From contig JACRNL010000001.1 of the NCBI GenBank assembly GCA_016234935.1, forward strand, positions 62,001 through 126,000: DNA of 64,000 nucleotides, read 5' to 3'. Made by a program: the position numbers and the translations under genes. Every line of letters begins with the position of its first letter. The first letter of the stretch is position 1. Below are positions 1,494 through 61,610 of the stretch, in pieces. Under the pieces are notes generated by a model. It had not been told where the DNA came from. It did no database searches and saw only the letters and a program-made list of their open reading frames with translations. The DNA comes from Deltaproteobacteria bacterium (lineage in GTDB: Bacteria; Desulfobacterota; GWC2-55-46).

Positions 1494-3794
1494 ATGGACA
1501 GACGGGATAAAAGGCTCAATGTCGCCTTTGTCTGGCATATGCACCAGCCTCTTTACAAAGACCCCCTCACTGGCGAGTACGTCATGCCCTGGGTGCTTTT
1601 GCACGCCACGAAGGATTATTTCGACATGGCCGCCATACTTGAGGAGTTCCCCGCCGTCCATCAGACCTTCAACGTCGTGCCGTGCCTCATCGAGCAGATA
1701 AACGACTACGCCTCCGGGCGCGTTAACGACGCTTACCGCAACGTTACCCTGAAACCGGCCGCCGGGCTGGACAAAGACGACAAGCTGTTCCTGCTTAAAA
1801 ACTTCTTTCAGGCCAACTGGGAGAATATGATCAGGCCCATACCGGGTTACTGGGAGCTTTTATGCAGAAGGGGGCCTTCAAATTCTCCGGACGACATCCG
1901 GCAGGCGCTCAGGTACTTCAGCGTCCAGGACTATCTTGATCTGCAGATATATTTCAATCTTGCGTGGATAGACCCCTGGATACGTTCACAGGACGCCGAG
2001 CTCGGCGGTCTCCTGAAAAAAGGCCGCTCATATGCTGAAGAAGACAAGCAGACTATCGTAAAAAAGCAGACCGCGATAGCCGCCGGCATCCTTCGGAAGT
2101 ACGCGGAATTATCTGAGCGGGGCATAATCGAACTCTCCACCACCCCGTATTACCACCCTATAATGCCGCTCCTGTACGACAGCTTCTCCGCAAAGGCCGC
2201 CATGCCGGACGTTATCCTTCCCAAAGAGCGTTTTTCACATCCTGAGGACGTCCGCGCCCAGCTTGAAAAAGGCGTCAGGCTGCATGAAGAGACCTTTGGA
2301 ATGAAACCCGCGGGCATGTGGCCGTCAGAAGGCTCGGTCAGCCATGAGATACTGCCGCTTATCAGGCAGGCCGGCATCAAGTGGATAGCCAGCGACGAGG
2401 AAATACTGTCGAATTCGCTTAAAAGGCCACTGCGCCGCGACACCTCCGGCAACTGCCATGACGCATTTCTCTATAAGCCCTACGCGGTTGACGTCAATGG
2501 AGAAAGGCTTTCCATCGTCTTCAGAGACCATATGCTTTCAGACCTCATAGGATTTGATTACGCGAAGATGAACCCGGACGACGCCGCTGACGACTTCATC
2601 CGCAGACTGACGCACATACACGGCCTTTTTGAAGAGCCTGAAAAGCAGATAGTCAGCATAATCCTCGACGGAGAGAACGCATGGGAGAACTTCATAAACG
2701 ACGGCAGGGACTTCCTTCGCGCCCTGTATTCAAAGCTCTCAGACCATCCGCAGCTCAAATGCGTCACCGTCGGCGAGTTCCTTGACTCTGCGCCATACAG
2801 GGAGGAGCTGAAATGGCTCTATCCCGGCTCGTGGATCAGCCACAACTTCAAGATATGGATAGGCCATCACGAGGACAACGCGGCATGGGATTATATCGCC
2901 GAGGCCAGAAGCGCGCTCGTCAGGTTCGAGGAGACGCTGGCGCCGGATACGCTCACGGCGGAGAAAAAATTCACTCCCCCGCTTCAGACACGCGAGGGCA
3001 GGCTTAAAGAGGCGTGGAGCGAGATATACGCCGCCGAGGGGAGCGACTGGTTCTGGTGGTACGGCGACGATCACTCGTCCCAGAGCGACGAACAGTTCGA
3101 CGTCCTTTTCAGAAAACATCTGAAGAAGGCGTACCTTCTCATGGGCAAGGAGCCGCCGATGGCGCTCGACATCCCGATATCCTCCGAAGAAAAGGGTTTC
3201 AAGCCTGCGTCCACGCCGACCGCCTTCATAAAGCCGGTCATCGACGGGGACGTCACCAATTACTTCGAGTGGCTCGCGGCTGGCAGGCTTGAACGCATCA
3301 TGACGTCAAGCTCCATGCACAAAGACGTCCAGAAGGGCTGTCTTTTAGACGCCATACTCTACGGTTTTTCAAGGGACTCTATATTCTTCAGGCTTGACTA
3401 CCTGCCTGAGCTCATCCCGTATGAGAAGGATTGGAAGTTCACGATAAACATAGTTCAGCCGTCGTGCACCAGGATATCCGCCGGGATAAAAGGCGGCTCG
3501 CCAACCGTAAGCGTCTATAAAAAACAGGCTAAGGTCGAACCCCCTCAGGGAATTGAGCCCCTTCAGGGGGAAGATGAGTGGGTCGCGGCCGGTGTGAATG
3601 CCGCGATAGCCTCCGGATGCGTGGTCGAGCTCGGCCTGAGGCTCGATGATATAGATGTAAGGCCCGCAGGCGAGATACGCTTTTTCATAAACATAGAAGC
3701 CGGCGAACGCTGCGTTGAAAGGTGGCCGTCGAAAGGCGTCATAATCATCGACGCCCCGTCGGCGGATTTCGAAGACGAAAACTGGCTTGTGTAG
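1494..3794 (+). CDS. Glycoside hydrolase family 57 protein
   Basis: A 766-residue protein opening with VWHMHQPLYKDP, the HxHQP motif that begins GH57 catalytic domains (alpha-amylase/4-alpha-glucanotransferase group). GMWPSEGSVS near residue 280 fits the nucleophile region, and SDLIGFDYAKM near 350 fits the acid/base region. The C-terminal third is a beta-rich domain typical of the long bacterial form. It probably acts on storage alpha-glucan, which would fit glgB at 32.5 kb. Two repeats are embedded in frame. A family B copy at residues about 495-503 reads PPLQTREGRL. A family A copy at about 680-693 reads VEPPQGIEPLQG. Exact substrate is unknown. Confidence 0.85.
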   Translation: MDRRDKRLNVAFVWHMHQPLYKDPLTGEYVMPWVLLHATKDYFDMAAILEEFPAVHQTFNVVPCLIEQINDYASGRVNDAYRNVTLKPAAGLDKDDKLFLLKNFFQANWENMIRPIPGYWELLCRRGPSNSPDDIRQALRYFSVQDYLDLQIYFNLAWIDPWIRSQDAELGGLLKKGRSYAEEDKQTIVKKQTAIAAGILRKYAELSERGIIELSTTPYYHPIMPLLYDSFSAKAAMPDVILPKERFSHPEDVRAQLEKGVRLHEETFGMKPAGMWPSEGSVSHEILPLIRQAGIKWIASDEEILSNSLKRPLRRDTSGNCHDAFLYKPYAVDVNGERLSIVFRDHMLSDLIGFDYAKMNPDDAADDFIRRLTHIHGLFEEPEKQIVSIILDGENAWENFINDGRDFLRALYSKLSDHPQLKCVTVGEFLDSAPYREELKWLYPGSWISHNFKIWIGHHEDNAAWDYIAEARSALVRFEETLAPDTLTAEKKFTPPLQTREGRLKEAWSEIYAAEGSDWFWWYGDDHSSQSDEQFDVLFRKHLKKAYLLMGKEPPMALDIPISSEEKGFKPASTPTAFIKPVIDGDVTNYFEWLAAGRLERIMTSSSMHKDVQKGCLLDAILYGFSRDSIFFRLDYLPELIPYEKDWKFTINIVQPSCTRISAGIKGGSPTVSVYKKQAKVEPPQGIEPLQGEDEWVAAGVNAAIASGCVVELGLRLDDIDVRPAGEIRFFINIEAGERCVERWPSKGVIIIDAPSADFEDENWLV
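2976..3002 (+). repeat. Family B palindromic repeat inside the GH57 gene
   Basis: The run CCCCCGCTTCAGACACGCGA continues into GGGCAGG. It is nearly identical to copies in mutS (6329), upstream of prmC (16483) and upstream of mobB (61584). Here it is in frame and codes for PPLQTREGRL. Confidence 0.8.
3532..3571 (+). repeat. Family A in-frame 18-bp-period repeat (GH57 gene)
   Basis: Two imperfect units (GTCGAACCCCCTCAGGGA and ATTGAGCCCCTTCAGGGG) read VEPPQG-IEPLQG. This is phase 1 of the element (G-V/I-E-P-x-Q). Confidence 0.85.
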
Positions 3795-3802
3795 AGAGCG
3801 GC

Positions 3803-6451
3803 ATGACTATGGAAAACCTGACACCGGCTATGCGCCAGTACCTTGACATCAAGACGAAAAACAGCGACGCCATACTGCTGTTCAGGATGGGCGACTTCTA
3901 CGAGATGTTCTTTGAAGACGCAGTCCTTGCCTCGCGCATACTCGGCATAGCGCTTACCTCAAGGGACCGCGCGAAGAAAATACCCATGTGCGGCGTTCCG
4001 TATCATGCCGCCGACGGCTACATCGCCAGGCTTGTCAAGGCGGGGCACAAGGTCGCGATATGCGAGCAGGCCGGCCTGCCCCCCGCCGGAGACAAGGGCA
4101 TTGTAGAGCGCTACTTGAAGAAGATTATTACCCCCGGAACCGCGCTCGAAGACGCGATACTCGACCCGAAGGTGGAAAACCATATCGCGGCAGTGTCCCT
4201 TGGCGGCGATGGCTGCGGCCTTGCCTGCATGGAGCTGTCGACCGGCGAGTTCATGGTGTCTGAGTTCACGTCAATCGCCTCGCTTCAGGACGAGATACGG
4301 CGCGTCCGTCCGCTTGAGCTTGTCATAAAAGGCGCTGAAAACCCGTTTGCCGGCGTTGAGGAATTTTTCATAAAAAAGATAACCTCGCTCCCGAAGCATG
4401 ATTTTGAGCTTCACTCGGCGCATGAGAGGCTTAACTCACACTTCGGCACGGCGGCCCTTGACGGCTTCGGAGTAGGCGGCATGCGCGAAGGCCTCCGCGC
4501 CGCAGGCGCGCTCCTTCATTATGTAAAGGAAACTCAGCGCTCCGGCCTTTCACATATAAAAAAATGCGCTGCCCGCCTTCCTCATGAATACCTGATAATA
4601 GACCATTCAAGCAGAAGAAACCTTGAGATAACCGAAAACCAGAGGACGGGCGGCAGGGAAGGGACTTTATTAGACCTGCTTGACAGGACAAAGACCGCAA
4701 TGGGGGCAAGGCGTCTGAGGTCGTGGCTTTTAAACCCGCTCAGGCACGCGGAGGCCGTTAACGGGCGGCTCGACGCCGTGTCGGAGCTTAAAAATGACAG
4801 GGTGGCAAGGTCGGCTTTGGCCGAACTGCTCTCAGGCGTGTATGACATCGAAAGGCTCGTAACAAAGGTCTCTTTGCTTTCTGCCTCGCCGCGGGATATC
4901 GTCGCGCTTAAAAATTCCCTTTCCAGATGCCCTGACGTGAATAAACGGCTTGCCGCGTTCAAATCAACGCTTGCCGCCGGGATAAACGCGGGTGTGGACG
5001 CGGTATACGAAGCGATTGAATTGATAGACAAGGCGGTAGCAGACCCGCCTCCATTTTCCATTAAAGACGGCGGCGTAATCAAGGCAGGCCACAATAAGCT
5101 TCTTGACGAGCTGCGCGAGATAGGCTCCGGCGGAAAGGACTGGATGGCCCGTCTTGAGGCCGATGAAAGAAAGAGAACCGGAATAAATTCGCTTAAAATC
5201 GGCTTCAACAGGGTCTTTGGCTACTATATCGAGGTCACGCGGACGAACCTGGCCGCCATACCGCCGGATTACACAAGAAAGCAGACCCTCGTGAACGCCG
5301 AGAGGTTCATCACGCCCGCGCTTAAAGAGTGGGAGGAAAAAATATTGACCTCCGAGGAAAAGGCAAGGGAGCTTGAGGCGTCGCTCTTTGCCGCTCTCCT
5401 TGGCGACCTTTCATTTTACGCCGGCCGCATACGCGGGACGGCGCAAATGCTTTCCGTGCTTGACGCCCTTGTCTCCCTTGCGGACGCCGCGCATGAGCTT
5501 GGCTACGTCAGGCCGGAGGTGGCCGCCGAAGGCGGCATCTCGATAACCGGCGGCAGGCACCCGGTCGTGGAGGCCGTTATCAGGAACTCCGCCGACTCAG
5601 CCGGCTTCGTGGCGAACGACGTTGTCCTTGACGCCGGTGAAAACCAGATACATATCGTCACCGGGCCGAACATGGCCGGGAAATCAACGTACCTCCGCCA
5701 GACGGCGCTTATCGTCCTCATGGCGCAGATTGGTTCGTTCATCCCCGCCGCGAAGGCGTCCATAGGCGCGGTTGACAGGATATTCACGAGGATAGGGGCC
5801 TCTGACGACCTCTCGCGGGGACAGTCCACCTTCATGGTCGAGATGAGCGAGACCGCCAACATCCTCAATAACGCCACGCCCATGAGCCTCGTTATATTGG
5901 ATGAAGTAGGCAGGGGCACGTCCACCTTCGACGGCCTCAGCATAGCGTGGGCGGTTGTGGAATACCTGCATGACCTCGGCGGCATAAGGCCCATGACGCT
6001 CTTTGCGACGCATTACCACGAGCTGACCGAGCTTTCCTTGACAAGGGAAAGGGTCAAAAACTATAATATGGCTGTAAAGGAACTTGACGATAAGATTACT
6101 TTTCTCAGAAAGGTAGTGCCCGGCGCGGTGAACAGGAGCTACGGCATCCACGTCGCGAGGCTTGCCGGCATCCCCGCCGAGGTCATTGCAAGGGCGGGGC
6201 AGATACTTAAAAACCTGGAGCGCGGCGAGATCACCGAATCCGGCATGCCGCGTATAGCGCTTAATGACGGCGGCGCGCAGGCACAGCTTGAAAGGGTTGA
6301 ACCCCCCATTCCTGAAAAAACGGACGCACCCCCGCTTCAAGCACGCGAGGGCAGGTTGCGCGAAGAGCTGATGAGGGTCGACGTAAACAATATTACGCCG
6401 ATGGAATCGCTGACCATCCTGAGCAGGCTTAAGGGAATGCTCGACAATTGA
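3803..6451 (+). CDS. mutS: DNA mismatch repair protein MutS
   Basis: An 882-residue MutS. The N-terminal mismatch-recognition motif is GDFYEMF, with the Phe-x-Glu pair that contacts the mispair. The C-terminal ATPase has the Walker A GPNMAGKSTYLRQ (near residue 620), the signature region DDLSRGQSTFMVEM, the Walker B LVILDEVGRGTSTFDG, and the dimer-interface helix-turn-helix at the C-terminus. The ATG at 3803 follows an AGAG-type weak ribosome-binding site 8 bases after the GH57 stop. A longer upstream frame lacks homology. The linker before the last 30 residues contains a degenerate family A copy (RVEPP) and a family B copy (PPLQAREGRL), a position that should tolerate insertion. Confidence 0.97.
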   Translation: MTMENLTPAMRQYLDIKTKNSDAILLFRMGDFYEMFFEDAVLASRILGIALTSRDRAKKIPMCGVPYHAADGYIARLVKAGHKVAICEQAGLPPAGDKGIVERYLKKIITPGTALEDAILDPKVENHIAAVSLGGDGCGLACMELSTGEFMVSEFTSIASLQDEIRRVRPLELVIKGAENPFAGVEEFFIKKITSLPKHDFELHSAHERLNSHFGTAALDGFGVGGMREGLRAAGALLHYVKETQRSGLSHIKKCAARLPHEYLIIDHSSRRNLEITENQRTGGREGTLLDLLDRTKTAMGARRLRSWLLNPLRHAEAVNGRLDAVSELKNDRVARSALAELLSGVYDIERLVTKVSLLSASPRDIVALKNSLSRCPDVNKRLAAFKSTLAAGINAGVDAVYEAIELIDKAVADPPPFSIKDGGVIKAGHNKLLDELREIGSGGKDWMARLEADERKRTGINSLKIGFNRVFGYYIEVTRTNLAAIPPDYTRKQTLVNAERFITPALKEWEEKILTSEEKARELEASLFAALLGDLSFYAGRIRGTAQMLSVLDALVSLADAAHELGYVRPEVAAEGGISITGGRHPVVEAVIRNSADSAGFVANDVVLDAGENQIHIVTGPNMAGKSTYLRQTALIVLMAQIGSFIPAAKASIGAVDRIFTRIGASDDLSRGQSTFMVEMSETANILNNATPMSLVILDEVGRGTSTFDGLSIAWAVVEYLHDLGGIRPMTLFATHYHELTELSLTRERVKNYNMAVKELDDKITFLRKVVPGAVNRSYGIHVARLAGIPAEVIARAGQILKNLERGEITESGMPRIALNDGGAQAQLERVEPPIPEKTDAPPLQAREGRLREELMRVDVNNITPMESLTILSRLKGMLDN
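6293..6355 (+). repeat. Degenerate family A plus family B repeat in the MutS linker
   Basis: AGGGTTGAACCCCCC (family A half unit) is followed 20 bases later by CCCCCGCTTCAAGCACGCGA-GGGCAGG (family B, about 6329-6355). Both are in frame in the poorly conserved region between the MutS ATPase and its C-terminal helix. Confidence 0.75.
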
Positions 6452-10584: not shown

Positions 10585-11513
10585 ATCAAAACGATCCGCT
10601 CATAAAGGAATTTCTCGACCACATAATCGTGGAAAAGGGGCTTTCGCGTAATACCCGTCTTTCTTACTCAAGCGACCTTTCACGCTACGCGGAAAGTCTT
10701 AAGAAGAATAGCGTTGAGCCGGTTAACGCGTCGTCCGGCGACATAACCGCCTTTCTTAAGGGCCTGCGGGACGGCGGCATTTCGCCGCGTTCATGCACAA
10801 GGTCGCTTGTGGCCGTGCGCGGGTTTTATAGATTTTTATTAAAGAGGAAGAAGATAAGGCAGTCTCCCTGCGCGAACGTTGACATGCCGCGCTTTAACAT
10901 GAAGCTGCCGGAGTTCCTGTCTTTGGGAGAGGTAGACCGCCTGCTCAGCGCGCCGGACAGTTCGAGCGCGCACGGCCTCAGAAACAAGGCCATGCTTGAG
11001 ACGCTTTATGCCGCCGGCCTCAGGGTCTCGGAGCTTGTCTCGCTGAAGCTCAACGGCATAAACCTCCAAAAAGGATTCCTGACTGCATTCGGAAAAGGCT
11101 CCAAGGAGCGGCTCGTTCCGCTTGGCGAGTCCGCCATGATATGGCTGAAACGCTACATAGACGACGCGAGACCAACGCTATGCGCGAAGAAAAGCCCCTT
11201 GAAGGGGTCAAGCCCCTTCAAGGGGCTGAGCACGCCATTTCTTTTTCTCACCTCAAGAGGCAGCCGCATGAGCAGGCAGAACTTTTGGGTAGTGATAAAA
11301 AAGACGGCCCTTGCGGCGGGCATTGATACGGCGAAGATAAAACCTCACAGCCTGCGCCATTCATTTGCCACGCATATGCTTGAAAGAGGGGCTGACTTAC
11401 GGATGGTGCAGGCCATGCTCGGCCACTCCGACATATCAACCACCCAGATATACACCCATATCACAAAAGAACGGCTAAAAAAACTGCACAAGAAAAAACA
11501 TCCGAGGGGTTGA
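10581..11513 (+). CDS. xerD: Tyrosine recombinase XerD/XerC
   Basis: A 310-residue site-specific recombinase of the chromosome-dimer resolution type. It has an N-terminal SAM-like core-binding domain (about 1-95) and a C-terminal catalytic domain. The catalytic residues are Arg in AAGLRVSELVSL, the HSLRHSFATH box, and the nucleophile Tyr in STTQIYTH. Its ATG overlaps the glnD stop (ATGA), indicating translational coupling. A family A repeat interrupts the catalytic domain at residues about 204-217 (SPLKGSSPFKGL), where XerD proteins have a beta-hairpin loop. The gene's TGA stop is itself part of another family A copy (GGGGTTGAACCCC). The split between XerC and XerD is not certain. Confidence 0.93.
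   Translation: MNQNDPLIKEFLDHIIVEKGLSRNTRLSYSSDLSRYAESLKKNSVEPVNASSGDITAFLKGLRDGGISPRSCTRSLVAVRGFYRFLLKRKKIRQSPCANVDMPRFNMKLPEFLSLGEVDRLLSAPDSSSAHGLRNKAMLETLYAAGLRVSELVSLKLNGINLQKGFLTAFGKGSKERLVPLGESAMIWLKRYIDDARPTLCAKKSPLKGSSPFKGLSTPFLFLTSRGSRMSRQNFWVVIKKTALAAGIDTAKIKPHSLRHSFATHMLERGADLRMVQAMLGHSDISTTQIYTHITKERLKKLHKKKHPRG
11192..11231 (+). repeat. Family A repeat inside xerD
   Basis: AGCCCCTTGAAGGGG-TCAAGCCCCTTCAAGGGG is two units in phase 2, reading SPLKGSSPFKG. The arms are strongly self-complementary and should form an RNA hairpin in the coding sequence. Confidence 0.88.
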
Positions 11514-19346: not shown

Positions 19347-19404
19347 TGGGGTTGAACCCCTGCAAGGGGTTGAACCCCTTCAAGCTGCTCAAAAAGTTCA
19401 TCTG
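19347..19404. repeat. Family A repeat joined to a family E half element
   Basis: GGGGTTGAACCCCTGCAAGG-GGTTGAACCCCTTCAA is followed at once by GCTGCTCAAAAAGTTC, the terminal arm of the family E palindrome. It fills the gap between two minus-strand genes. Confidence 0.75.
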
Positions 19405-20574: not shown

Positions 20575-21825
20575 TCACAGACAGCGGCTCATTTCCTTAA
20601 ACGAAAAGCCTTTCAGACTCGGCCTGTCCATTCCCTTGTGCTGGACCATGACCTTGAAGGTGTCGCCCATGCCGCCGGGGCTTATTAACCGCGCCAAGGC
20701 GCGGTTATATTTTATCTTTTCGTAATCGTCACCCCTCTGAGAGGGGTCAACCCTTGGGCCGGAGGCAACGGCCTCTTTAAGCTCTTCGATGATGCCGAGG
20801 CCGAGAAAGAAGTTCTTTTGCGTCGTAAAACCGGTAAGCTGAAGGCCAAGGGCGTTCCCCCTGTTCATGAGCATGGAGAAGTCAACATGCGCCGTTATAT
20901 CCTGTCTACCTACGTTTATATAGGGGTTGTCGTTAAGGGTATGGCGATAGTGGCACATGAGGCTGCCGGCGCGCCTTTCCGGGGAATAAAGTTCGCGTGC
21001 AGGCAGGCCGTAATCAATCGTAATAACGAAGCCATTGCTTATAAAAGCTGAGACGGTTTCGAGCCACTTGCAGGCATTAAGGTTTATCTCCATGAGCATG
21101 CCGTCCACAGGCGCTATGCCGGAGTCCTTGATATACGCGGCAAGCTCATCCGTTGAAGGTTCTCCCAGCCGTTCAACGAACCGTCCGTCAACGTAATCAA
21201 TATAGATTTCCTTCAGCCCCCTGAGGGGGTTCGACCCTCTGAGAGGGTTCGACCCTCCTGCCCTCTGAGAGGGTTCAACCCACAAAACCCTATGCACCGG
21301 AAAGCTGTCAATAAGCTCATTTGAAAGGACGCAGGCACAGGCAGGTCTTTTAAAACCGGTAAAATCCTCATGCCATGAGATATTTGCCTGAGGCTCTTCC
21401 CTCTGATAGGGTTCAACCCTCTGAGAGGGATCAACCCTCAAATACGGATTTTTTTCGATGAGCCTGACCTTTATGACGTCATACAACGGTCTCCAGAACT
21501 CCTCAAGCGTTGCAAGGATGCCTTTTGAAAGCCATCCCCTGCCGGCGCCCGCTTCTATCAGCGTAAAATCTTCCGGCGACCCTGACAGGACCCACATCTC
21601 GTGTATCTGTTTTGCAAGCAACTTTGAAAATACCGGACTTACGTCAAGGCTCGTGATGTAGTCGCCCTTTTCACCCCATCTTCCGCCCGGCGAGGTGTAG
21701 TATCCGCCTTCCGGGCAGTATAGGGCGCCGTCCATAAACGCGGCAAATGTCATGGGGCCGTTTTTCCGTATGCCCCTGATTATTTCTGCCTCTGCTGGTG
21801 TGATTTTTTCTTCTTTTAAATTCAT
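20575..21825 (-). CDS. MidA-type SAM-dependent methyltransferase (DUF185/NDUFAF7 family)
   Basis: A 416-residue protein. N-terminal ALYCPEGGYYTS is the diagnostic segment of the MidA/NDUFAF7 family, and TLIEAGAGRGWLSKGIL is the SAM-binding motif; VITIDYGLPARELY and HVDFSMLM also fit. The mitochondrial homologue methylates an arginine of complex I; the bacterial target is unknown. This gene carries three separate family A insertions: residues about 130-143 (RVDPSQRVEPYQRE), 182-204 (VEPSQRAGGSNPLRGSNPLR) and 358-365 (RVDPSQR). It is the most heavily invaded gene here. The frame stays open and the family motifs are intact, so it is probably functional. Confidence 0.9.
   Translation of the reverse strand: MNLKEEKITPAEAEIIRGIRKNGPMTFAAFMDGALYCPEGGYYTSPGGRWGEKGDYITSLDVSPVFSKLLAKQIHEMWVLSGSPEDFTLIEAGAGRGWLSKGILATLEEFWRPLYDVIKVRLIEKNPYLRVDPSQRVEPYQREEPQANISWHEDFTGFKRPACACVLSNELIDSFPVHRVLWVEPSQRAGGSNPLRGSNPLRGLKEIYIDYVDGRFVERLGEPSTDELAAYIKDSGIAPVDGMLMEINLNACKWLETVSAFISNGFVITIDYGLPARELYSPERRAGSLMCHYRHTLNDNPYINVGRQDITAHVDFSMLMNRGNALGLQLTGFTTQKNFFLGLGIIEELKEAVASGPRVDPSQRGDDYEKIKYNRALARLISPGGMGDTFKVMVQHKGMDRPSLKGFSFKEMSRCL
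20731..20754 (-). repeat. Family A repeat, midA copy 3
   Basis: AGGGTTGACCCCTCTCAGAG-GGGT on the minus strand, reading RVDPSQRG. Confidence 0.82.
21213..21281 (-). repeat. Family A repeat, midA copy 2 (four units)
   Basis: The longest array in the window. One phase 1 unit (VEPSQR), a 6-base break (GCAGGA), then two phase 2 units (GSNPLR-GSNPLR). The break changes phase without creating a stop. Confidence 0.88.
21398..21438 (-). repeat. Family A repeat, midA copy 1
   Basis: Two GAGGG-subtype units in phase 1 (RVDPSQ-RVEPYQ-RE). Confidence 0.85.
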
Positions 21826-31298: not shown

Positions 31299-31360
31299 TA
31301 TATTTAAGGGTTTCAGGGACGGAATTTTTGGACTTATTACAAGGTCTTCTGAAGAAAAAA

Positions 31361-31440
31361 AGCCGCCCAGCACCACTTTCCATTACCAGAAGTTTATGCA
31401 TAATATAAACGTTGGCGCTGGAAAGTGGTGCTGGGCGGCT
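31361..31440. repeat. MITE-like palindrome (family F), copy 1
   Basis: Perfect 22-bp inverted repeats (AGCCGCCCAGCACCACTTTC-CA and its complement) flank 36 bases. A second copy at 35437-35506 has 16-bp arms and a closely similar core (GTTTATGCATAATATAAACG versus GTTCATGCATAATACAAACG). Confidence 0.85.
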
Positions 31441-31482: not shown

Positions 31483-31758
31483 CTATGCGGCGGCGCTGCC
31501 GGGCACCTGGAGTCTTTTGTACTCATGCAATATCTGATCTTCGAGCATTTGCCGCGTGGACTTGTCCAATGGGTGAACGAGGTCGCGGTATGTGCCGTCC
31601 TTCATCTTCTTCGCCGGCATGGCGATAAAGAAACCGGTCGTCCCTTTTATAATTTTCATGTCCCTGACGACAAAACAGTCGTCGAGCTTGATAGTCACAT
31701 AGGCCTTAAGTTTTTCGTCACCATCTACCGGCAGGACTTTAATCTCAGTAATGCGCAT
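31483..31758 (-). CDS. spoVG: Septation regulator SpoVG
   Basis: A 91-residue RNA/DNA-binding regulator. MRITEIKVLPV, KAYVTIKLDDCFVVRDMKII and FIAMPAKK fit the family closely and the length is normal. In Firmicutes it affects division and sporulation; outside them its role is mostly unknown. AAGGAGGAAAAAGCG precedes the ATG. It is monocistronic as far as can be seen. Confidence 0.96.
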   Translation of the reverse strand: MRITEIKVLPVDGDEKLKAYVTIKLDDCFVVRDMKIIKGTTGFFIAMPAKKMKDGTYRDLVHPLDKSTRQMLEDQILHEYKRLQVPGSAAA

Positions 31759-32343
31759 CGCTTTTTCCTCCTTGCTTGGTTTTTGGTTTATGTTTCCAGA
31801 AGCAGCCCTGTAACACTTCCTGTAAACCTCTCGACGTTAGAAAAAAAGTATGCCGCGCATAAGCATCAATGCGAGATAGCGCTGTGCAAGACGTTGTATC
31901 TTTCTAATTTTTAAATGGGTTTCAAAATCTCTACCCCTGTTTTAAAATTGCGTTGCGTGTCGTTGTGCGGATAATCAATTCTAAAATGAAGCAGGGGTTA
32001 TCTGCGTCTCGGCTGTTAAAGGTTTCTAAAAACGCATATTAACTTTTTTTGACGTATCATCTGACATGAGCTATAATATTTTATATGTTTATGTTTCTAT
32101 TGCAAACATAGTGCCAAAAAGTTGACTCACGATAAAGACTAATAAAAACAGATAGTTCTATTTAAAAGCTCACCTTGTTTGTGCTGATAATTATAATAAT
32201 TACATATTTTTATATGCATGGTGCACATAGGAATATGCAACGCAATTCATTTTAGAACAAAAGAAAATAGAAATTTACAAATCACCACATTGTGTTATAT
32301 TTGACGTTCATTTAGCAAGTTTCTGAAAAACTCAAAATCTGGT
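31759..32343. other. AT-rich gene-free region with inverted repeats
   Basis: About 585 bases with markedly lower GC than the rest. No ORF with a credible start. It contains ACCCCTG-TTTTAAAATTG (about 31935) facing CAATTCTAAAATGAAGCAGG (about 31976), and TTGCGTTGC (about 31948) facing GCAACGCAATTCATTTTAGA (about 32236). It may be a decayed mobile element or a regulatory region. Confidence 0.5.
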
Positions 32344-32467
32344 CAGGCTGCTCAAAAAGTTCCAGATGCAAGGCGTCGAGGAGAGAGGAACGAGGCGCAC
32401 TTTGTTGTGCGCCGTTCGTTCCGAACGACGAAGACAACGCCGCAGATGGGACTTTTTCAGCAGCCTG
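32344..32467. repeat. MITE-like palindrome (family E), intact copy
   Basis: Termini CAGGCTGCTCAAAAAGTTCC and GGGACTTTTTCAGCAGCCTG are inverted repeats (18 of 20). Inner arms are CAGATGCAAGGCG and CGCCGCAGATG, with further hairpins GTGCGC and CGTTCG. Similarity to the second copy (35366-35550) starts about 25 bases before the left terminus. Confidence 0.85.
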
Positions 32468-32494
32468 TTAGATTGAATGAAAAAGGGAACGGAT

Positions 32495-34953: not shown

Positions 34954-34973
34954 GCGCGAGGCTTCAGCCTCGC
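34954..34973. repeat. REP-like hairpin (family C)
   Basis: GCGCGAGGCTTCAGCCTCGC, perfect stem, without a GTAG head. A half copy (GTAGAAGCCTCGCGCTGCG) lies at 35067-35085. Confidence 0.68.
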
Positions 34974-34987
34974 TTCTCCGCTTAAAG

Positions 34988-35013
34988 CCCCCGCTTTAGA
35001 CACGCGAGGGCAG
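34988..35013 (+). repeat. Family B repeat, intergenic
   Basis: CCCCCGCTTTAGACACGCGA-GGGCAGG, followed by a CCTGCGGGGACATGG piece of the hairpin found in family D. Confidence 0.78.
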
Positions 35014-35197
35014 GCCTGCGGGGACATGGTTTTTAAAGCGCCTCTGCATGGTTGCGGCAAGGCCCGGTAGAAGCCTCGCGCTGCGATTTTCTTTGGGAAT
35101 ACTTGACATATATTTTAATATCAGATATCTTAAATTTTCAACTTGCCGGTTTTGGACAAAATACGCCATAAAAACGAAAAGTTAGGCGCCGGCATTT

Positions 35198-35322: not shown

Positions 35323-35380
35323 TTTTTGGGTTTTAACAAGTTGCGGAAAAAACTCAAAATATGGTCAGGCTGCTCAAATC

Positions 35381-35412
35381 TTCCCATTGCAATAATAAAG
35401 ACGCAATGGGAA
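35381..35412. repeat. Inserted hairpin in family E
   Basis: Perfect arms TTCCCATTGC and GCAATGGGAA with a 12-base loop. Absent from the intact copy at 32344. Confidence 0.75.
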
Positions 35413-35436
35413 CCCAGCCAGATGCAAGGCGTCGAG

Positions 35437-35506
35437 CCCAGCACCACTTTCCATCGCCAAGAGTTCATGCATAATACAAACGTTGGCAGAGGAAAGTGGT
35501 GCTGGG
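35437..35506. repeat. MITE-like palindrome (family F), copy 2, nested in family E
   Basis: Arms CCCAGCACCACTTTCC and GGAAAGTGGTGCTGGG (16 of 16) around a core like that of copy 1. The flanks, GTCGAG on the left and GAGGAACG on the right, fit a 3-base duplication (GAG). Confidence 0.85.
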
Positions 35507-35620
35507 GAGGAACGAGGCAACGCCGCAGATGGGACTTTTTCAGCAGCCTGTTAAGAGGCGTTGCGGCGGAGGCCCGGCTCTGATATAGTCAACGTAAATA
35601 TCATAACTTGCGGGGTTCAT

Positions 35621-37794: not shown

Positions 37795-37870
37795 CCTCCC
37801 CCGCACCACTCGCTCGTACGGCTGTTTGCGTTTAGTGATGCGTCTGTATCGGCGAGTGGTGCGGGGGAGG
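37795..37870. repeat. Palindrome with 19-bp arms inside a family H repeat
   Basis: CCTCCCCCGCACCACTCGC and its exact complement flank 38 bases. The copy at 52606 has only the short CCTCCCCC-TTCAC-GGGGGAGG stem, so the GCACCACTCGC...GCGAGTGGTGC portion looks inserted. Confidence 0.78.
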
Positions 37871-61539: not shown

Positions 61540-61583
61540 CGTCTGAGCCTTGGCTTGACATTCAAAGGCTTGGAGCAAACTAA

Positions 61584-61610
61584 CCCCCGCTTCAAACACG
61601 CGAGGGCAGG
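61584..61610 (+). repeat. mobB: Family B repeat supplying the mobB ribosome-binding site
   Basis: CCCCCGCTTCAAACACGCGA-GGGCAGG, with GAGGGCAGG 7 to 15 bases before the mobB ATG. Confidence 0.75.

Follow-up and report, generated by a model that had tools for sequence, protein, structure and literature searches.

How palindromes come to be nested within other palindromes is the question raised by positions 35337-35550 of the window, the stretch of 64,000 nucleotides analyzed here from contig JACRNL010000001.1 of a Deltaproteobacteria bacterium. At this site, a copy of a dispersed palindromic repeat, E, carries a short hairpin, H, and a complete copy of another palindrome, F. The initial annotation described the host as MITE-like, proposed that F had been inserted with a 3-base duplication, and concluded that E is older than F. 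The nesting itself is real: E, H, F, and a stand-alone F are all present, and chance is excluded by 46 matches to E, 13 exact matches to H, and approximately 37 matches to F in the genome (2.15 Mb, 15 contigs).

Extent and Target Duplications of E

Alignment of E copies showed that E extends to an outer left end, CAGG(T)TGCTGAAAAAC, located 28-29 bp to the left of the boundary previously drawn. Both E copies reported in the window were present, and both left boundaries had to be moved. The copy without H or F, placed before at 32344-32467, spans 32316-32467 on the plus strand as determined from genome matches, terminal repeats, and its TTAG flanks. The composite copy, placed before at 35366-35550, spans 35337-35550 on the plus strand, as determined from its terminal repeats, its TTAA flanks, and alignment with other E copies; it contains H and F and has lost the native central hairpin. 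Its outer left terminal repeat (35337-35353, plus strand; CAAGTTGCGGAAAAAAC, with counterpart CAGGTTGCTGAAAAAC) had been overlooked. Its right terminal repeat is CTTTTTCAGCAGCCTG (35535-35550, plus strand), and the E right end, CTTTTTCAGCAGCCTGTTA, had 64 matches in the genome with 2 or fewer mismatches, compared to 0 for a reversed control. With the outer terminal repeat included, both copies show perfect 4-bp duplications, TTAA at 35333-35336 and 35551-35554 for the composite and TTAG at 32312-32315 and 32468-32471 for the intact copy.

A perfect 4-bp flanking duplication was present in 22 of 47 long E copies from this genome and its relatives, compared to 6.1 for shuffled partners (maximum 14 in 5000 shuffles), and the most common were TTAG, CTAA, and TTAA. 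For a few copies in this set (for example, at C7:366990), the left end was misplaced by automatic detection; these copies were kept in the count, which lowers the duplication score. Of 40 genomes searched, 25 contained E (23 of 25 in the same family).

Copies of F Within and Outside E

F at 35437-35506 (plus strand) was confirmed, with 16-bp perfect arms CCCAGCACCACTTTCC/GGAAAGTGGTGCTGGG and the junctions GTCGAG-F-GAGGAACG. The second F in the window was likewise found standing alone at 31361-31440 (minus strand; core 31366-31435), with 22-bp perfect arms, but it is not the sole other copy, as the genome has approximately 37, most of them outside E. The stand-alone F has a copy-specific stem, AGCCG/CGGCT; its 22-bp perfect stem, which runs into T7 on the minus strand (31355-31440), is terminator-like, and it lies downstream of a 91-aa open reading frame (31483-31758) that is SpoVG-like. 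Loci L152 and L304 also have F on similar stems with a T run following.

Seven F copies were located in E or E remains: C7:97437 (the 35437 copy), C3:146664, C3:59142, C1:53780, C3:107200, C10:110327, and C10:229461. The first 4 have the junctions G(T/A)C(G/A)AG-F-GAGGAACG in common, with F in either orientation, and F is identical at C7:97437, C3:146664, and C1:53782 and 96% identical at C3:59142. The F at C10:110327 belongs to another lineage (it groups with C4:24665, support 100/98) and its junction is slightly different, indicating that F entered E at least twice in this genome. The composites at C7:97337-97550 and near C3:146664 have identical F and both combine H, F, and a lost E center at different genomic sites, which indicates that the E-H-F composite multiplied; this points to one E-F arrangement having been carried to several loci. 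In this genome, the F copies within E adjoin the E center. The native center is gone from the 35337-35550 copy, where F would now serve as the tip of E.

The proposed relative age of E and F stands in a narrower form. F is later than E within these E copies, but a general dating is too broad, both families being dispersed and the composite itself having multiplied. E copies of relatives were mostly without F, and the full-length copies sampled there had none, contrary to what an original part of E would show, so F joined E later.

Several other palindromes were observed. Four F copies (C3:107200, C5:293142, C12:97351, and C3:53701) contain a further REP-like hairpin, a third layer of nesting. 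A REP-like unit, CCCCCGCTTCAGACACGCGAGGGCAGG, lies at window positions 2961-3002, 6314-6355, 34973-35014, and 61569-61610, as well as inside 4 F copies elsewhere in the genome. A third F-like palindrome, at 37799-37866, has a changed inner arm (CCCCGCACCACTCGC..GCGAGTGGTGCGGGG) and has C8:54826 as its neighbor in the F tree. The window also has many short palindromic units, of the CCCCTTGAAGGGG and CCCTCTGAGAGGG kinds and with GGTTCAACC linkers (e.g., 19348-19401, 21199-21289, and 11186-11239), often paired 18 bp apart. Relatives of F in named records were groundwater 'Deltaproteobacteria' metagenome-assembled genomes (MAGs). In one relative, G006 (L282 and others), F-type palindromes numbered at least 109 copies, many at contig ends; Y1 and DDE_Tnp_1 transposases were looked for in G006 and none were found.

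Inverted Flanks of F and Possible Replacement of Hairpin Tips

The flanks of F in this genome were inverted-complementary, with a mean run of 2.54 compared to 0.84 when shuffled (maximum 1.68; 37 copies). When like contexts were merged and the conserved outer CCCA/TGGG was set aside, 8 of 25 distinct contexts in this genome had at least 4 further complementary pairs, compared to 0.8 expected (maximum 4 in 2000 shuffles). Strictly adjacent inverted flanks in other genomes were found in 5 of 31 contexts compared to 1.7 expected, with no significant excess.

In pairs of filled and empty hairpins, which are repeat copies at different loci and not orthologous sites, F stands where the empty hairpin has its tip; one such tip is that of the E central hairpin. 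GCTCG-F-CGAGC (also GCTCG-F-CGAGCGGCCAGA) in L156 and L151 compares with GCTCGCCTTTGGCGAGC (also GCTCGCCTTTGGCGAGCGGCCAGA) in L245, L250, and L254. In the E of G006, AATGAG-F-CGCA (L282, L293) compares with the empty AATGAGGCGCACTTTGTTGTGCGCCGCA (L120); the slot taken is that of the central stem-loop, which in the intact E of the window is GGCGCACTTTGTTGTGCGCC (32394-32413, plus strand). In the genome that contains the window, GTAGTGCGAG-F-CTCGC compares with the REP-like GTAGTGCGAGGCTTCAGCCTCGC. E copies of this genome have F at GTCGAG-F-GAGGAACG, where others have about 4 more bases; the flanks there are not complementary and the tip is not symmetric.

By this route, F would spread by replacing the tip of a resident hairpin, be it a terminator, a REP-like repeat, or the central stem-loop of E, and would leave inverted rather than direct flanking repeats. 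The agent could be template switching between hairpins or an enzyme acting on hairpins. That F actually moves in this manner is something we infer, and the lack of a significant excess of inverted flanks in other genomes indicates that tip replacement may not be the sole mode. We offer tentatively, and with some doubt, the broader reading that F spreads as a hairpin that is swapped in for another hairpin's tip, with no transposase of the kinds tested here, such that chromosomal stem-loops are modular and their flanks inverted. Hairpin-tip replacement by F is possibly a new point; the flank statistic reaches significance in this genome alone.

Snap-back synthesis once F is in place might also lengthen inverted flanks. 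F could have been inserted anywhere by another route, and the flanks could have become inverted later through quasipalindrome template switching, in which one flank is copied in snap-back fashion onto the other. Published work describes such template switching in E. coli (PMC7202029) and states that it is able to create hairpins (PMC8794818), and a copy-specific, AT-rich 11-bp stem (AATACAAGAAG/CTTCTTGTATT) is in keeping with it. However, host hairpins also occur without F, namely GCTCGCCTTTGGCGAGC, the E central hairpin, and the REP-like GTAGTGCGAGG..CCTCGC. Snap-back template switching could enlarge stems but leaves these F-less hosts unexplained, and we regard it as an unlikely source of the flanks as a whole.

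Direct Repeats Beside F

The 3-base duplication attributed to F was not borne out. Direct repeats of 3 bp or longer flanked 5 of the 37 F copies in this genome, compared to 2.5 expected (maximum 8 in 2000 shuffles), and 3 of these 5 share one E junction. GAG on both sides of F was seen only in E-resident copies with one common junction. The flanks outside GCCCA/TGGGC vary freely, and there is no conserved tetranucleotide head beside the stem. F lacks the features tested for a MITE that duplicates its target and those tested for a REP linked to RAYT.

Movement of F by a transposase, as a MITE that duplicates 3 bp (GAG at this locus), would require that its symmetric flanks be due to chance or to a preference for palindromic targets. 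Such movement would fit the GAG that flanks F on either side at 35437-35506, C3:146664, and (inverted) C1:53780, the TCA on both sides at C8:36039, and the direct repeats of 3 bp or longer among the 56 merged contexts, which number 8, compare to 2.45 expected, and equal the shuffle maximum. However, 5 of those 8 are self-complementary CGCG or CATG and are thus inverted as well, the repeats in this genome are not clearly above expectation and come largely from a single E junction, and the inverted flanks are far above expectation. Furthermore, E without F mostly reads GTCGAG-GAGN-GAGGAAC, and a clean insertion would not yield the sequence observed. Taken together, these data make a duplicating F quite improbable.

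Autonomous Relatives of E

The initial annotation had proposed a search for an insertion sequence (IS) with the terminal arms of E, and intact IS5-family elements with such ends were found in other bacteria. A plasmid search with the E right end led to short Paracoccus elements and then to IS5-family IS, namely elements annotated as ISRssp10-like (Roseovarius) and an IS5-family element (Neorhizobium), with ends of the CAGGCTG(C/T)TGAA(A/G)AAG type and YTAR duplications. Intact IS with E ends were flanked by TTAA/TTAA (L187), TTAG/TTAG (L185, L180), or CTAG/CTAG (L183), and 3 from the same phylum (L191, L196, L195) each by CTAG/CTAG; an IS5-family IS from the same class (L202) showed E-type ends only. 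The transposase of these E-ended elements matches NCBIfam NF033581. The CAGGCTGCTGAAAAA-type terminal inverted repeats are common to E and the autonomous IS, and, as checked on the intact elements of Roseovarius, Neorhizobium, and the phylum relatives, IS of the ISRssp10/NF033581 type share with E the terminal repeat CAGG(C/T)TG(C/T)TGAAAAA and the 4-bp YTAR duplication. E differs from them in being about 150 bp long and noncoding, with many copies (46 matches) in a genome where no matching transposase was found.

The ISRssp10-like, NF033581-type transposase was found neither in this genome (G000) nor in the sampled family members, and PF05598, PF01609, and PF01797 had no match in this genome. 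As candidate partners of E, PF05598 proteins of relatives were rejected because they are without E-like ends, and PF01609 and PF01797 were rejected because the searches gave none in this genome. With IS5-type ends and YTAR duplications present and no such transposase found in the genome, E is an orphan MITE here. The term MITE-like was thus apt: E has what defines an IS5-family MITE, namely terminal repeats, a 4-bp YTAR duplication, and IS5-family IS with matching ends elsewhere, and its autonomous partner is absent from its own genome. E would have spread as a non-autonomous IS5-family element with the terminal repeat CAGG(C/T)TGCTGAAAAA, duplicating a 4-bp YTAR target.

Elements of about 150-160 bp with E-like ends and YTAR-type flanks were also seen on Paracoccus and Phaeobacter plasmids (L176 2359-2521, L177, and L189 1868-2017), and these are possibly IS5-family MITEs.

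It is very improbable that E is instead a family of structured regulatory RNAs, multiplied for its function and not mobile. The intact copy folds into a single long hairpin (32316-32465; fold z = -6.5), and all 17 distinct versions of the central hairpin among the 46 copies in this genome are paired, with a stem of at least 7 bp in every one. In addition, Geobacter metallireducens has multicopy intergenic elements whose central palindrome, GRCGTAGCGCTGCTACGCC, resembles the GGCGTAG..CTACGCC of E and which are described as short RNAs in PMC2700814; their possible identity with E is a lead. However, a MITE would be expected to be a long palindrome anyway, E has YTAR duplications and shares its ends with IS5-family IS, and an Rfam search gave no match for E (weak miRNA matches to F were far under the gathering score).

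Hairpin H and Its Place in E

The extra hairpin at 35381-35412 (plus strand) was present as described, with 10-bp perfect arms TTCCCATTGC/GCAATGGGAA. It is not private to the composite copy, since 14 E copies of this genome, 13 with exact H and 1 with a degenerate H, all carry it at one E site, and these copies span different E subfamilies as judged by arms, outer ends, and central hairpin. In relatives G006, G008, G016, and G010, H lies at other positions of E-like elements, with GGC(A/T)GGG on one side. A one-off insertion was rejected on both grounds, and the different positions in relatives indicate that H is a palindromic repeat in its own right, which has entered E on more than one occasion within the family. 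H and F are both separate families of short palindromic repeats that entered E from outside. In this genome, H may have been gained at one E site and then spread among the E subfamilies, either as E transposed or through gene conversion among E copies.

Although every H and several F of this genome sit in E, it is scarcely credible that both are original parts of E lost from the other copies, because most E copies of this genome and the sampled full-length copies of relatives have neither, most of the approximately 37 F copies are outside E, and the place of H within E differs in other genera.

Other hairpins, of the GACCCATCCTTCGGATGGGTGCCCCGA type, were observed at several positions in the E copies at C15:20436, C9:130087, C10:30771, and C9:165456 (L093, L102, L106, and L104, respectively). 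E seems to be a common host of hairpins.

Discussion

H, F, and the other hairpins described here resemble REP/RAYT repeats, which are associated with a Y1 transposase, in being short, dispersed, and palindromic, and one of the host REP-like units has a GTAG head. In contrast, F has no asymmetric head and sits at the tips of other hairpins, and a search of this genome for the Y1 transposase (PF01797) found none. Mitochondrial double-hairpin and repetitive hairpin-forming elements, together with mobile DNA (e.g., PMC2800124 and PMC4478555), are likewise short, mobile, geneless hairpins; those are mitochondrial, and the likeness is one of description.

The explanation as a whole, which we consider probable, is that E is an IS5-family MITE, that H and F entered it from outside, F by tip replacement, and that the E-F form then multiplied. 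The E side of this history is ordinary, that of an orphan IS5-family MITE. For F, tip replacement predicts that new copies will be found at the tips of stem-loops with the target not duplicated. If confirmed, hairpin-tip swapping would be a form of DNA copying without target duplication, would tie the spread of repeats to terminators and to the processing of hairpins at replication forks, and would account for the nesting of palindromes in these bacteria from groundwater.
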